Positions 21,075-24,551 of a stretch of 64,000 nt of DNA are shown here, one piece after another (position 1 is the first letter of the stretch; every line of letters begins with the position of its first letter). Both the position numbers and the translations under genes were made by a program. Source of the stretch: a virus. The stretch spans positions 1 through 64,000 of the IMG/VR virus record IMGVR_UViG_3300028844_003474, one strand, 5' to 3'. The notes beneath the pieces are model-generated. The model searched no databases, had not been told where the DNA came from, and saw only the letters and a program-made list of their open reading frames with translations.

Positions 21075-21488
21075 ATGTGCAAAAAAGATAAAGAAGAAAA
21101 GCCAGAAGACTTTATTTGCAAAATAACATGCGGTAACGAAGGCACTGCGTGTCTACTTACCTTCACAACTCATTTTACATTACATAGTTTCTTTCAAGCT
21201 ATCGCAGCTAGCTATCCAGATGTAAATTCTGACAATCCAGTATTGTTACGCTTCTCTGAAGACTATGATGGGTTTCGTATGACCCTTACTTGTACGGGCT
21301 ATGCAGACAGTACGTTTTCTTTTAACATATCTGATTCTAACGTTGATTCTTTTTGTCAGTATGTTATTGGTGACCCTATTAACTATACTGTCAAAGATGT
21401 CTTCATTGGATGTATTCGCAATGAGATGACTAAGGTTACAGGTCGTTATGTTTCACACCTAAAAGAAGAATACCATGTCTTCCAGTAA
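21075..21488 (+). CDS. hypothetical protein
   Basis: A 137-residue protein with a short Lys/Glu-rich start (MCKKDKEEKPEDFICKITCG) and then alternating strands and helices with many aromatics (FTTHFTLHSFFQAIAASYPD). Five Cys are scattered and form no clear metal site. It precedes the HAD phosphatase with a short overlap and may be co-expressed with it. No family recognised. Confidence 0.6.
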   Translation: MCKKDKEEKPEDFICKITCGNEGTACLLTFTTHFTLHSFFQAIAASYPDVNSDNPVLLRFSEDYDGFRMTLTCTGYADSTFSFNISDSNVDSFCQYVIGDPINYTVKDVFIGCIRNEMTKVTGRYVSHLKEEYHVFQ

Positions 21489-22032
21489 TATGACAGAAAG
21501 GAACATCATCATATTTGATTTAGATGGTACTCTTGCTAATGTGAGTGTAAGACGTAGTCTTGCTGACTCTGCTAAAGCTAAAGTATTAGGTGAGGTTACT
21601 CATCCTTATGCTGATAAGGAGTTAGTGCAACAGGCTAATGAGGCTTGGTGGCATGAGTGGGAGGGAGTATCCGCCAATATCCAGTATGATAGACCTTCAC
21701 CGGTTGCTGATATACTGCGTGGCTTCCATATGTTGAATAGATTTCACATTGTTATATTTTCTGGCCGTAATAATCGGCTTCATAATGTAACTTTGCGTTG
21801 GTTAGACAAGCATAGAATTCATTTTGATGATTTCTTTATTCGTCCTGCTAACGACATGCGACCTGACGAGGTGTTAAAGAATGAGATGCTTATGTCTAAA
21901 CCTGAGGGGTGGCGTCGTAGAGTAAGAGTTATTTTTGACGATCGTAATAAAGTCGTCAAAGAATGGAAAAAGCTTGCATTGCTTCCTGAACACAGCTTTT
22001 CTCTAGTTCAAGTTGCTGATGGTGACTTTTAA
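21475..22032 (+). CDS. HAD-superfamily polynucleotide 3'-phosphatase-like protein
   Basis: A 185-residue protein, or 180 if started at the ATG at 21490 just after the upstream stop. Motif I is FDLDGTL with nucleophile D15 and acid D17; motif II is the Ser of IVIFSGRNN; then TLRWLDKHRI, RPANDMRPDEVLKNEML and the acidic motif VRVIFDDRNKVVKEW. The R-x-x-x-D-x-R-x-D and DDR-x-x-V-x-x-W elements match the phosphatase domain of T4 Pnk/PseT, which removes 3'-phosphates from nucleic acid ends; the kinase half is absent. It lies directly before folded RNA regions and tRNA genes, so RNA end repair is an attractive but unproven role. Confidence 0.8.
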   Translation: MSSSNMTERNIIIFDLDGTLANVSVRRSLADSAKAKVLGEVTHPYADKELVQQANEAWWHEWEGVSANIQYDRPSPVADILRGFHMLNRFHIVIFSGRNNRLHNVTLRWLDKHRIHFDDFFIRPANDMRPDEVLKNEMLMSKPEGWRRRVRVIFDDRNKVVKEWKKLALLPEHSFSLVQVADGDF

Positions 22033-22040
22033 AAAAAAAT

Positions 22041-22230
22041 CCTGCTGCGGCAGGTATGGGACGTGGTTGAGAACTGTGACCGCAGTCGGTTTAGTACCGC
22101 CACTCCCATTAAACAGGTGATAAACACAGCCTTAAATGTGTTTGATTTTGGTTGACCATGACAAGATGGTCGTCAGTAGATTGTTAGGGGTAGGGGATCA
22201 AAACGTTGGTTCCCTACTGCTACCAACAAA
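22041..22230 (+). ncRNA. candidate structured RNA 1 (about 190 nt)
   Basis: This stretch between the phosphatase gene and tRNA-Leu holds a series of perfect helices. CCTGC/GCAGG closes on a 4-base loop (22041-22054). ATGGG-x2-GTGG pairs with CCAC-x-CCCAT (22056-22066 with 22100-22109) around two inner hairpins ACTG/CAGT and CGGT/ACCG, giving a three-way junction. AAACACA/TGTGTTT (22122-22143), GACCAT/ATGGTC (22154-22171) and GTAGGG/CCCTAC (22190-22218) follow. No reading frame accounts for it. Known phage RNAs could not be recognised by eye; it may be processed together with the tRNAs. Confidence 0.55.
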
Positions 22231-22245
22231 GAGTACATAATTTTG

Positions 22246-22329
22246 CCACTGTGATGAAATTGGTAGACATGACAGACTTAAAATCTGTTGGACAGTTTGT
22301 CCGTACCGGTTCGAATCCGGTCAGTGGTA
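22246..22329 (+). tRNA. tRNA-Leu (TAA)
   Basis: The acceptor GCCACTG pairs with CAGTGGT (G-U first pair) with discriminator A. The anticodon loop CTTAAAA gives UAA, and a long variable arm (GGACAGTTTGTCC) is diagnostic for leucine. The T arm is CCGGTTCGAATCCGG. CCA is not encoded. Confidence 0.95.
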
Positions 22330-22363
22330 CTAAAACATTTAGCACACCTAACGTGCTTTTTAT

Positions 22364-22437
22364 ACTCCTGTAGCACAACCGGATAGTGCAACATCCTTCT
22401 AAGATGTAGGTTGTGGGTTCGAATCCCGCCAGGAGTA
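22364..22437 (+). tRNA. tRNA-Arg (TCT)
   Basis: The acceptor ACTCCTG pairs with CAGGAGT, D stem GCAC/GTGC, anticodon stem ACATC/GATGT with loop CTTCTAA (UCU), and T arm GTGGGTTCGAATCCCGC. Discriminator A; CCA is not encoded. AGA codons are common in the phage genes. Confidence 0.95.
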
Positions 22438-22453
22438 CTTTTATTTTAATATT

Positions 22454-22585
22454 ATGTCAAAGATTGTATCCGTAGCTAAAGAAACTGTCTCTACTAAGAG
22501 ACCAGGTATTCACAGCAAAACCAAAACCTCTAATCACAAGAGCAGTAAATGCTATCGTAAAAAGTATAGAGGTCAAGGTAAATAA
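22454..22585 (+). CDS. small basic protein (43 residues)
   Basis: A 43-residue protein beginning MSKIVSVAKETVSTKRPGIH and ending KSSKCYRKKYRGQGK. The Lys/Arg-rich tail with Tyr-Arg-Gly-Gln-Gly and the THSK-like middle look conserved and would bind nucleic acid. I have an impression of similar small proteins in other Bacteroidetes phages but cannot name a family. It lies between tRNA-Arg and the folded RNA region with an AT-rich start context. Confidence 0.6.
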   Translation: MSKIVSVAKETVSTKRPGIHSKTKTSNHKSSKCYRKKYRGQGK

Positions 22586-22995
22586 AATCCCTATACCGTC
22601 TGATTAGAGTCAGACACTTAGGGCTGGTCAGTTAAAGACCTTAAAACCCATGAGAGGCTATGGTTCCTCTCGGTTTGTCGGTGGTGTTAGCCGAAGTAAT
22701 CTCCACCTAATGGTACATGAACGTACAAGTGGCCTCTGTCTCATACTCTCTAAAGTTGGCAGAGGCTGCGGATCTCATTGGGGTCTGACTGAGCCTTATT
22801 ACCCAAATCAGTTACTATCTAAAAGTCCTACGCTAAACAATCGTAGGCATTATTTATCAGTCAAGCAATAGTGTACGTGTTACCGCTTGATGTATAGACC
22901 ACGTACCTGTCCCAACTTGGACAGCTTAGTCATAGTTAGAGAGAGTGTAGCTGTTATGCCAGCCTACGGGTCGCAGTGCACTCTCTTGTTTTTTC
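22586..22995 (+). ncRNA. candidate structured RNA 2 (about 410 nt) with pseudoknot and terminator
   Basis: An ordered set of helices fills this region. CCCTA/TAGGG (22589/22619) encloses GTCTGA/TCAGAC. GGTC/GACC (22626-22640). AAACC plus GAGAGG pair with CCTCTC plus GGTTT (22644-22676). GGTGG/CCACC (22680/22703). GTAC/GTAC (22713/22723). GCCTCTG/CAGAGGC (22732/22760). CCTACG/CGTAGG (22827/22842). An H-type pseudoknot: TCAAGC (22861) with GCTTGA (22885), interleaved with GTACGTG (22873) and CACGTAC (22900). CTGTCC/GGACAG (22907/22919). A final AGAGAGTG/CACTCTCT stem runs into TGTTTTTTC. Reading frames inside have poor protein character. Function unknown. Confidence 0.75.
22940..22995 (+). terminator. 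intrinsic terminator of structured RNA 2
   Basis: AGAGAGTG (22940-22947) pairs with CACTCTCT (22979-22986) over a 31-nt loop that itself has a GCTG/CAGC hairpin, followed by TGTTTTTTC. It sets the 3' end of the folded RNA and separates it from the gene at 23006. Confidence 0.75.
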
Positions 22996-23005
22996 ACAAA
23001 TAAAT

Positions 23006-23446
23006 ATGGATAGAGAAACAGAAATTACCGACAAGCTATTGCAGCTTATGAGAGTACAACAGATTAACCACAACCTTGAGAATGAGTGTATTAAGCTGCG
23101 TCATGAGGTCGGAAATTTGGAAGAGCGTGACAATGGTCGTCTTATCGAAGATTTGCGCAAAGAAAACTCTGATCTTAGAGGTGAACTCTATAAGCTCAAG
23201 GGGCGGGTGCAGCTCATGGATAATATTGTGTATCTCTACGAGGCTGAGAGGTACTTTGATTTCAAAAAGCCACGACTGTCAAAAGTTTGTCGTGAGCTTA
23301 ATATGGATATGCAGGATGCAGTTGATGTTCTAGCACAAACAGGCCTCATTGAATGGTCTCGACGTGAGACATTCTGTAAACCAAACACAAAGCTGGATAT
23401 GATGCAGTACTGTGTGTTGAGGTTTATAGATCACAAAAACAAGTAG
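23006..23446 (+). CDS. coiled-coil protein with possible winged-helix end
   Basis: A 146-residue protein starting MDRETEITDKLLQLMRVQQI at an ATG with the leader AAATAAAT. Residues about 10-80 are a charged coiled coil (Leu/Glu/Lys heptads); residues about 85-145 (KPRLSKVCRELNMDMQDAVD, then VLAQTGLIEWSRRE) follow a helix-turn-helix plus wing pattern. A dimeric DNA-binding regulator is a reasonable guess. It ends in TAG, rare in this genome, and the next gene starts 2 bp later. Confidence 0.55.
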   Translation: MDRETEITDKLLQLMRVQQINHNLENECIKLRHEVGNLEERDNGRLIEDLRKENSDLRGELYKLKGRVQLMDNIVYLYEAERYFDFKKPRLSKVCRELNMDMQDAVDVLAQTGLIEWSRRETFCKPNTKLDMMQYCVLRFIDHKNK

Positions 23447-23448
23447 AC

Positions 23449-23856
23449 ATGGACATTAGCAAGACAAAGTTCATCAAGAACTTCGTGTTTAAAAAGATTA
23501 GCAAAGAAGGGTCTTACGGTGACAACCAAAGATATATCACTTATCAAGCTTGGCTTCACTTACCAAACAACTACAGGCTTTCGATAATAACCAGCCCTGT
23601 TGGTACAGGACTTACTTCAGTTCCTAACACGTATGAAATTGGGTTCTTTTCTAATCATCATCATAATGGGATGATTAAAGCACACAAGGAAGTGTATTGT
23701 TTTAACATCAAAGGTGTAGAAAAAGAGGTTGTTGCGTATCATACGACTGCTGAATATCTCACTCTTGAAGATCTTGAAGAATACCTTGTAGAAATCAGTG
23801 AGTGGCCTACTCGCACCAAAGAGATGGATATCGAAGAAGGTTATATTGACTCTTAA
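23449..23856 (+). CDS. hypothetical protein
   Basis: A 135-residue protein starting MDISKTKFIKNFVFKKISKE. It is mixed alpha/beta with several Tyr/His-rich strands (LHLPNNYRLSIITSPVGTGL and GFFSNHHHNGMIKAHKEVYC) and an acidic C-terminus. It is cotranscribed with the coiled-coil protein and followed by tRNA-Met. No family recognised. Confidence 0.6.
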   Translation: MDISKTKFIKNFVFKKISKEGSYGDNQRYITYQAWLHLPNNYRLSIITSPVGTGLTSVPNTYEIGFFSNHHHNGMIKAHKEVYCFNIKGVEKEVVAYHTTAEYLTLEDLEEYLVEISEWPTRTKEMDIEEGYIDS

Positions 23857-23878
23857 AATAAATAACCCCTTCGTTTTA

Positions 23879-23955
23879 GCGCTTGTAGCTCAGTTGGTCA
23901 GAGCATCCGACTCATAATCGGCAGGTCGTAGGTTCAAGCCCTACCAGGCGCACCA
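23879..23955 (+). tRNA. tRNA-Met (CAT), elongator type
   Basis: The acceptor GCGCTTG pairs with CAGGCGC, followed by A and an encoded CCA. The anticodon loop CTCATAA gives CAU. The first pair is G-C, so it is not an initiator tRNA. A CAU anticodon could also be Ile2 after lysidine modification; the body resembles elongator Met, but this was not tested. Unlike the other two tRNAs it carries CCA. Confidence 0.9.
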
Positions 23956-24122
23956 TAAGGTTGAAACGTCAATCTTGCAGAGCAAACAAAACTGAGTATA
24001 GGTTTGGAATAATCTTCATGATTAGTTTTTTTGGTTTAGGAGTTTTCCAGTTCTCCTAGCTCTGCTTAAATGAACCCTACGCTACGTTGTAGCAAATATA
24101 TATAATACACAAACACAAAATA
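23956..24122 (+). promoter_or_regulatory. intergenic control region before the 24.1 kb unit
   Basis: After tRNA-Met come AT-rich sequence and a GGAG/CTCC hairpin near 24038-24058, then recurrent motif copy D (24068-24096: AAATGAACCCTACGCTACG, then TTGTAGCAA, with GCTAC/GTAGC) and the element TATAATACACA (24101-24111), 22 bp before the ATG at 24123. The motif and the element lie next to each other here, so this is the clearest candidate early promoter of the window. Confidence 0.55.
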
Positions 24123-24551
24123 ATGCAAGAACTATTTTATGCAGTTGTAGCAGTTGCCATGGCTATGGCTGCAGTCACAGTTTTCTATCTATCGTACAAT
24201 ATTTCAGAAGCTAAAGCTTTGCGTAAAGCGTGCGATCATTGTAATTCTTATCTTAAAGAGTTAGAAGCAAAGAACACTAAGTTAAAATCACAGATAGAAA
24301 GAGCAGAAACAAAGTCTGCAATGTACTATGCTGTGAATCGAAGTCTAAAAGAGACTATTGACGTAATCCATACAGATCATAAAACGCTTGTAATCAAGTG
24401 GAGTACAGTTGAATCTGCATATCATAAGCTTCTTGAGCAACTGGAACAATTTACTTCAGAGGCTGAAGATCTAAGAGAATTAGAAAAAGACAATAATCAG
24501 CTTAGTATATTCTCTCAAATTAATAACGCAATAAAAACCCCTATGGAATAA
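24123..24551 (+). CDS. membrane-anchored coiled-coil protein
   Basis: A 142-residue protein. Residues about 4-25 (LFYAVVAVAMAMAAVTVFYL) form one membrane helix; the remainder is a long charged coiled coil. The layout (N-terminal anchor plus coiled coil) is that of i-spanins but also of many small phage membrane proteins, and the gene is 2.4 kb before the lysis cassette. Its stop overlaps the next start (TAATGA). Confidence 0.55.
   Translation: MQELFYAVVAVAMAMAAVTVFYLSYNISEAKALRKACDHCNSYLKELEAKNTKLKSQIERAETKSAMYYAVNRSLKETIDVIHTDHKTLVIKWSTVESAYHKLLEQLEQFTSEAEDLRELEKDNNQLSIFSQINNAIKTPME

Follow-up and report, generated by a model that had tools for sequence, protein, structure and literature searches.

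Positions 22589 to 22985 of the phage sequence studied here encode, on the + strand, a conserved structured RNA in which base pairing is under selection, including the pairs of two H-type pseudoknots, Q4/Q5 and K1/K2. The RNA belongs to no described family, as judged from Rfam 15, the INPHARED phages and an exact-motif search of the GTDB genomes, and the region contains no conserved reading frame. It is composed of two separable and exchangeable domains, A and B, whose order and surroundings vary among related phages. As a whole, these data are best explained by a new conserved multi-pseudoknot RNA that is stable and acts in trans, a reading that we hold with moderate confidence.

Genomic setting

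The window, i.e., the whole stretch of DNA that was analyzed, comprises 64 kb of a virus record that is 74,143 bases long. The capsid protein was assigned to the crassvirus capsid family of Pfam (E = 4.8e-80) and shares ~34% identity with its best counterpart among the listed named crAss-like phages; the phage is thus a divergent environmental member of the crAss-like group. The RNA lies within a co-oriented island, which reads on the + strand: phosphatase, non-coding sequence (22033-22244), tRNA-Leu, tRNA-Arg, an ORF of 43 amino acids, the RNA reported here, a coiled-coil-like ORF, an ORF of 135 amino acids and tRNA-Met. The features of this island and of the RNA are:

21475-22032, + strand: PNKP-type HAD 3'-phosphatase (Pfam HAD_PNKP, E = 8.7e-20; PHROG polynucleotide kinase, E = 7.7e-26)
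22040-22110, + strand: module Y1, consisting of a hairpin, an enclosing stem and a 6-bp kissing loop (CUGCGG/CCGCAG); present in the window, L123, L108 and L021
22112-22234, + strand: module Y2, structured, directly 5' of tRNA-Leu; homologue in L052, where Y1 is absent
22245-22330, + strand: tRNA-Leu (UAA), by ARAGORN and Rfam tRNA
22364-22438, + strand: tRNA-Arg (UCU), by ARAGORN and Rfam tRNA
22454-22585, + strand: small basic protein of 43 amino acids, encoded immediately 5' of domain A
22589-22765, + strand: domain A with nine helices, Q1 to Q9; one homologue with compensatory changes
22780-22985, + strand: domain B; homologues in the L091 group, L105, L104 and L052
22780-22813, + strand: most conserved stretch of domain B, GGGGUYUGACUGNGCCUURUUAYCCAAWUCAGUY, 34 nt that are nearly invariant across five lineages
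22861-22906, + strand: K1/K2 pseudoknot with compensatory changes, rare in shuffled sequences
22941-22994, + strand: hairpin P5-P7 plus T-run, a possible intrinsic terminator in this phage
23449-23856, + strand: protein of 135 amino acids of unknown function; relatives found only in records with domain B
23879-23955, + strand: tRNA-Met (CAU), by ARAGORN and Rfam tRNA

Evidence for a structured RNA

The whole region folds with an energy z-score of -3.8 on the + strand, but this stability alone is not evidence, because the minus strand (z = -3.7) and several nearby coding windows (z = -3 to -5) score equally low. Folding energy was therefore discarded as an argument and homologues were sought. 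IMG/VR was scanned with PolA, the terminase, the 135-amino acid protein and sequence motifs, which yielded about 180 loci. Homologues of the RNA were found in four other IMG/VR lineages, of which one carries domain A and all four carry domain B. Including the window, the comparison thus rests on five lineages that carry B, two with A and four with Y1, and the depth of the family is small. The loci L085-L090, L092, L094, L096, L097, L099-L101 and L103, retrieved from IMG/VR by a hairpin pattern, were rejected as chance matches.

In hand-made structural alignments, the window copy forms 18 helices with 91 pairs, and all 18 are paired across the homologues compared, with the exception of one terminal P4 pair in L052, a sequence in which P5-P7 is too diverged for full alignment. 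MAFFT misregistered some helices; covariation in domain A and in the pseudoknot of domain B was counted on the hand-made structural alignments, and the tool-based count was confined to the parts that MAFFT aligned largely correctly, namely the 3' part of B and Y1. It should be considered that the helices were picked by eye on the same sequences that were later used for counting. The 12 cells that deviate from Watson-Crick pairing are without exception G-U, never A-C, when read on the + strand, which fits transcription of this strand, but this is only supportive because the helices were chosen on that strand.

Domain A was found in a single further contig (L008/L102/L105), to which it is ~79% identical. 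The hand-made structural alignment with L105/L008 revealed double compensatory changes in Q1 (three) and in Q2, Q3, Q4, Q5 and Q6 (one each), while no pair is broken. Two of these helices constitute the H-type pseudoknot of the domain, in which CCAU (22648-22651) pairs with AUGG (22660-22663) to form Q4, and GAGAGG (22652-22657) pairs with CCUCUC (22666-22671) to form Q5.

Domain B starts with a putative P1/P2 pseudoknot, followed by hairpin P3, the H-type pseudoknot K1/K2, hairpin P4 and a long hairpin of P5, P6 and P7 with a cUACGg cap. K1 is formed by UCAAGC (22861-22866) and GCUUGA (22885-22890), and K2 by GUACGUG (22873-22879) and CACGUAC (22900-22906). The version in L105 reads GACAUG/CAUGUC and GCAAUCG/CGAUUGC, so that both sides are replaced in five of the six K1 pairs and four of the seven K2 pairs, i.e., in 9 of 13 pairs, without a single broken one. 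L104 and L052 likewise form K1/K2, each with its own letters. When the window stretch was shuffled 20,000 times with its dinucleotide composition preserved, a pseudoknot of this size arose only once, and it arose five times in 20,000 shuffles of the independent L105 sequence.

Concerted changes are likewise found in the remaining hairpins of domain B, with helices P3, P4, P5, P6 and P7. This includes the three-pair stem P7, whose middle pair is C-G, A-U or U-A and whose cap is UACG, or UAUG in L104. For the 3' part of B, the tool-based count found 100% of the cells paired, and none of 500 shuffles reached the observed percentage or the covariation score. A covariance model of this part assigned 78 to 102 bits to the B loci and 12.1 bits to the best other match in ~2 Mb. 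The pairing at the start of the domain is less certain: P1/P2 (GGG/YCC and GACUG/CAGUY) remains tentative because its consistent changes are one-sided only. A stretch of B that reads CCUUGUUAC is complementary to the 1492 region of 16S rRNA; this match was deemed a chance event, as the complementarity is lost in the copies of the window and of L104, which read CCUUAUUAC.

The sole long frame in the region (73 amino acids, 22650-22871) loses its start codon in the homologue by an ATG to ATA change, gains stop codons there and is shifted by insertions and deletions. An alternative view would hold that the region is a spacer with chance helices and a mere intrinsic terminator, or an unrecognized small gene. 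The low folding energy of nearby coding windows and the existence of the 73-amino acid frame could be cited in its favor. Compensatory changes are nevertheless found throughout, none of them broken, and the frame is not conserved. The covariation refutes chance helices, and this alternative is all but excluded.

At the 3' end of domain B, the hairpin at 22941-22985 is followed in the window copy by TTGTTTTTT. The homologues maintain the P5-P7 hairpin with covariation, but the T-run is present only in the window copy. Since the hairpin is kept in homologues that lack the T-run, it should be regarded primarily as a domain of the RNA. In the window phage, the hairpin together with TTGTTTTTT could still act as an intrinsic terminator.

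A first-pass annotation, made without homologues, had proposed an undescribed structured RNA with a pseudoknot and its own terminator at this site, and several of its claims can now be judged. The helices are where it placed them, although 18 helices with 91 pairs are present instead of "some ten". The H-type pseudoknot with a 6-bp and a 7-bp stem at 22861-22906 was confirmed by comparison at exactly this position. Its statements that the region holds no credible gene and that tRNAs and a 3'-phosphatase gene, which is of the PNKP type, lie nearby are also correct. The claim of an own terminator is only partly sustained: hairpin and T-run are present in the window, but the hairpin is conserved without the T-run. 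The annotation had further named missing covariation or a conserved reading frame as results that would refute it, and neither was observed, because covariation is extensive and the frame is not conserved. The pairing evidence thus bears out a prediction from raw sequence alone.

Exchange of domains and further RNA modules

In L105, a further non-coding sequence of ~175 nt lies between A and B, while B occurs without A in L104, L052 and the L091 group, the latter consisting of one near-identical sequence in L047, L048, L084, L091, L093, L095 and L098. The borders of B are sharp and the flanking genes on either side differ in each lineage. The degree of identity in B does not follow that of the phages: the B domains of the window and L091 are 92.6% identical, although their PolA proteins share only 41% identity, whereas the B domains of the window and L105 are 64% identical, although their PolA proteins share 66%. 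This mismatch is best explained by horizontal exchange.

Additional modules in the same islands, X, Y1, Y2 and Z, behave like A and B, and in related phages these RNA modules are found in varied orders near tRNAs and polynucleotide kinase/phosphatase genes. Y1 and Y2 jointly fold with z = -3.9. In Y1, the kissing loop CUGCGG/CCGCAG covaries with CUGUGG/CCACAG. Across four lineages, 95.8% of the Y1 cells are paired and the covariation score is 0.278, compared with a shuffled mean of 0.123; none of 500 shuffles reached the observed paired percentage or covariation score. Module Z is carried by L105, L052, L038 and L027, and module X by L002, L003, L104, L108 and L023. X was located at L002:3706-3967, L104:9634-9881 (minus strand), L003:4918-5068 and L108:1378-1502, and adjoins tRNAs in L003. 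The loop of an X hairpin apparently pairs with a downstream sequence, with compensatory replacement of CACCCG/CGGGUG by GGUCGU/ACGACU.

The initial proposal requires two corrections in this respect. The unit consists of two exchangeable domains and not of one fixed RNA, and the structured part of the island is larger than assumed, since 22040-22234 is likewise structured and conserved and Y1 had been missed. In L105, the non-coding island extends over ~1.2 kb (L105:4871-6050) and contains A, an insert, B and Z plus one more conserved module; it is conceivable that this island is one very large phage RNA. A hairpin followed by TTTT is found near position 6045 of L105.

The main rival to a trans-acting RNA is a cis-acting intercistronic or 3'-UTR element, i.e., a generic block after stop codons that stabilizes the upstream mRNA, guides its processing or ends transcription. 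This possibility is not excluded. It is supported by the co-orientation of the RNA with its neighbors in five of five lineages, by the T-run after the last hairpin in the window and by the observation that a stop codon is often located immediately before A or B or is overlapped by it: A overlaps the end of the kinase gene in L105, and B overlaps the upstream stop codon in L052 and L104. Against it stand the 5' and 3' genes, which differ in every lineage, the lack of conservation of the T-run, and the several pseudoknots and the 34-nt nearly invariant sequence, which exceed the needs of a generic stabilizer or terminator. The variable flanking genes also argue against a riboswitch, a dedicated attenuator or the control of one particular gene.

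Relation to known RNA systems

When the window was scanned against Rfam 15 at the gathering score, only tRNAs were found above the cut-off, and a search of 22030-24130 up to E = 10 returned no family besides tRNA and sub-threshold chance hits. A permissive Rfam scan of the L105 island likewise gave only hits below the cut-off. No homologue was detected by blastn among the INPHARED phages, and the B core was not found in GTDB genomes by exact motif. A hairpin motif gave 16 matches in GTDB, which were rejected as chance; upon scoring with the B profile, they covered this motif only. In the full texts searched, which leave out most subscription journals, such RNAs are undescribed in crAss-like phages. 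The earlier reading as an undescribed structured RNA is therefore supported by the absence of an Rfam match, though transcript data are not available, and its statement that GOLLD and ROOL do not match holds for the Rfam models up to E = 10.

GOLLD and ROOL are phage RNAs that are associated with tRNA islands, contain pseudoknots and have no known function (PMC12286853). The RNA described here resembles GOLLD as a large RNA of phages or prophages near tRNA islands, with pseudoknots and without assigned function. In GOLLD, the 5' part is less conserved than the 3' part (PMC12286853); similarly, domain A is rarer here than domain B. The likeness to ROOL lies in the phage origin, the vicinity of tRNA islands, the many pseudoknots, the lack of a known protein partner and the unknown function. 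Membership in one of these families, or functional equivalence to these RNA-only cages, could be inferred from this shared setting and from the ~1.2-kb non-coding stretch with A and B in L105, which falls into the size class of GOLLD. We nevertheless consider it unlikely: neither covariance model is matched, the RNA in the window is only ~400 nt long as compared to 659 nt for the solved ROOL and more than 800 nt for many GOLLD RNAs (PMC12286853), and A and B are found in separate contexts. Because their models are unmatched, the RNA was not filed under either family despite the shared setting. Among RNAs that lack an assigned function, GOLLD and ROOL are some of the best known, and the crAss-like phages now contribute a new family that is unrelated to them.

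Another kind of structured phage RNA beside tRNAs would be a ribozyme that cleaves itself, for example a theta ribozyme of the HDV-like type with a role in trimming phage tRNAs. Theta ribozymes adjoin phage tRNAs, often tRNA-Leu and tRNA-Met (PMC10879173), and a weak match to drz-agam-1 was obtained at L105:5951-6027 (24.8 bits; cut-off 37), where the position of the catalytic C is apparently G. However, the HDV nested double pseudoknot (P1-P3), whose catalytic C precedes P2, was not found on the + strand: a simple HDV-fold descriptor gave no hit on this strand in 22000-24200 and one chance-level match on the minus strand. In addition, no Rfam ribozyme matches in the window and the fold for which A and B show covariation differs from the HDV fold, which renders this explanation very improbable. 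The minus-strand match, an HDV-like ribozyme with K2 as P1, was rejected, as it is at chance level and unsupported by the strand evidence.

Type III antitoxin RNAs of the ToxI kind share with the present RNA the use of pseudoknots, there in phage-host conflict. Such antitoxins consist of short pseudoknots in repeated copies next to the gene of the toxin. Tandem repeats of a pseudoknot unit are not present here, and the sole direct repeat is formed by the 3' parts of two tRNAs.

Possible function and the RNA-repair neighborhood

Based on the comparison, we describe the RNA as a multi-pseudoknot RNA of a crAss-like phage that is read from the + strand in a tRNA/RNA-repair island and assembled from the exchangeable domains A and B. 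All further steps are inferred. The RNA would be co-transcribed with its neighbors and perhaps released by tRNA processing, and the 3' hairpin with its T-run would end the transcript. The product would be a stable, trans-acting RNA, but its function is unproven and there are no transcript, probing or genetic data.

One speculation is that the RNA takes part in an RNA-level conflict between phage and host, in which it could, for instance, lure or bind a host RNase, ribosome or RNA-binding protein as a structured bait or platform. This is only weakly inferred and amounts to a guess, but it would fit the neighborhood of polynucleotide kinase/phosphatase genes, tRNAs and tRNA-like elements, as well as the swapping of domains. 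Alternatively, the adjacency to RNA-repair genes might merely reflect the co-location of one genome region. A bolder hypothesis, which cannot be ruled out at present, is that these phages build large structured RNAs combinatorially. The parts would be tRNA-like elements and exchangeable domains (A, B, X, Y1, Y2, Z and others) that move horizontally and form a common pool; the system would be linked to RNA end-repair enzymes and would counter host RNA-targeting defenses by structured bait or sequestration. Irrespective of function, the pool of exchangeable RNA domains moves between phages beside tRNAs and RNA-repair genes, and as the domains are small, discrete and available in natural combinations, their function can be probed domain by domain.

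The proximity of kinase and phosphatase genes to phage tRNAs is also reminiscent of the T4-type repair of tRNAs by Pnkp and RNA ligase, which is directed against anticodon nucleases. As far as is known, only proteins take part in T4 repair. A kinase with a P-loop is encoded upstream in L091, L105 and L052 and matches the PHROG polynucleotide kinase family, but an RNA ligase (PF09414) was not found in ten of these phage records, and a complete repair pathway is thus not shown. With the phosphatase of the window as query, no relatives were found.

The protein of 135 amino acids is absent in L105 and L104 although domain B is present, and is thus at most a frequent companion of B; its structure prediction (pLDDT 42.5) was too poor for use. 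The 43-amino acid protein belongs to a family that is kept in related crAss-like phages and carries a K-x-P-G-x-H ... Y-R-G-Q-G motif (KRPGIHSK...YRGQG). It recalls small ribosomal proteins, but Pfam, NCBIfam and PDB gave no relative, and its identification as a known Bacteroidota ribosomal protein is unsupported by these databases.

Near the kinase, L091 (5091-5678) and L052 (4790-5380) encode a protein with two H-x-T-type motifs (HITM and HVTL) like those of 2H phosphoesterases. It has no Pfam match and might represent the cyclic phosphodiesterase of an RNA-repair set. Both phages also contain tRNA-like elements (L091:7134-7217 and L052:3504-3585, the latter on the minus strand), which ARAGORN does not call and whose central arm is abnormal, and a second such element, apparently without D-arm, is located near 2840-2905 on the minus strand of L052. 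The elements at L091:7134-7217 and L052:3504-3585 share an acceptor-like stem, GCACAGU/ACUGUGC, and a T-arm, GUGGUUCRAUUCCAC.
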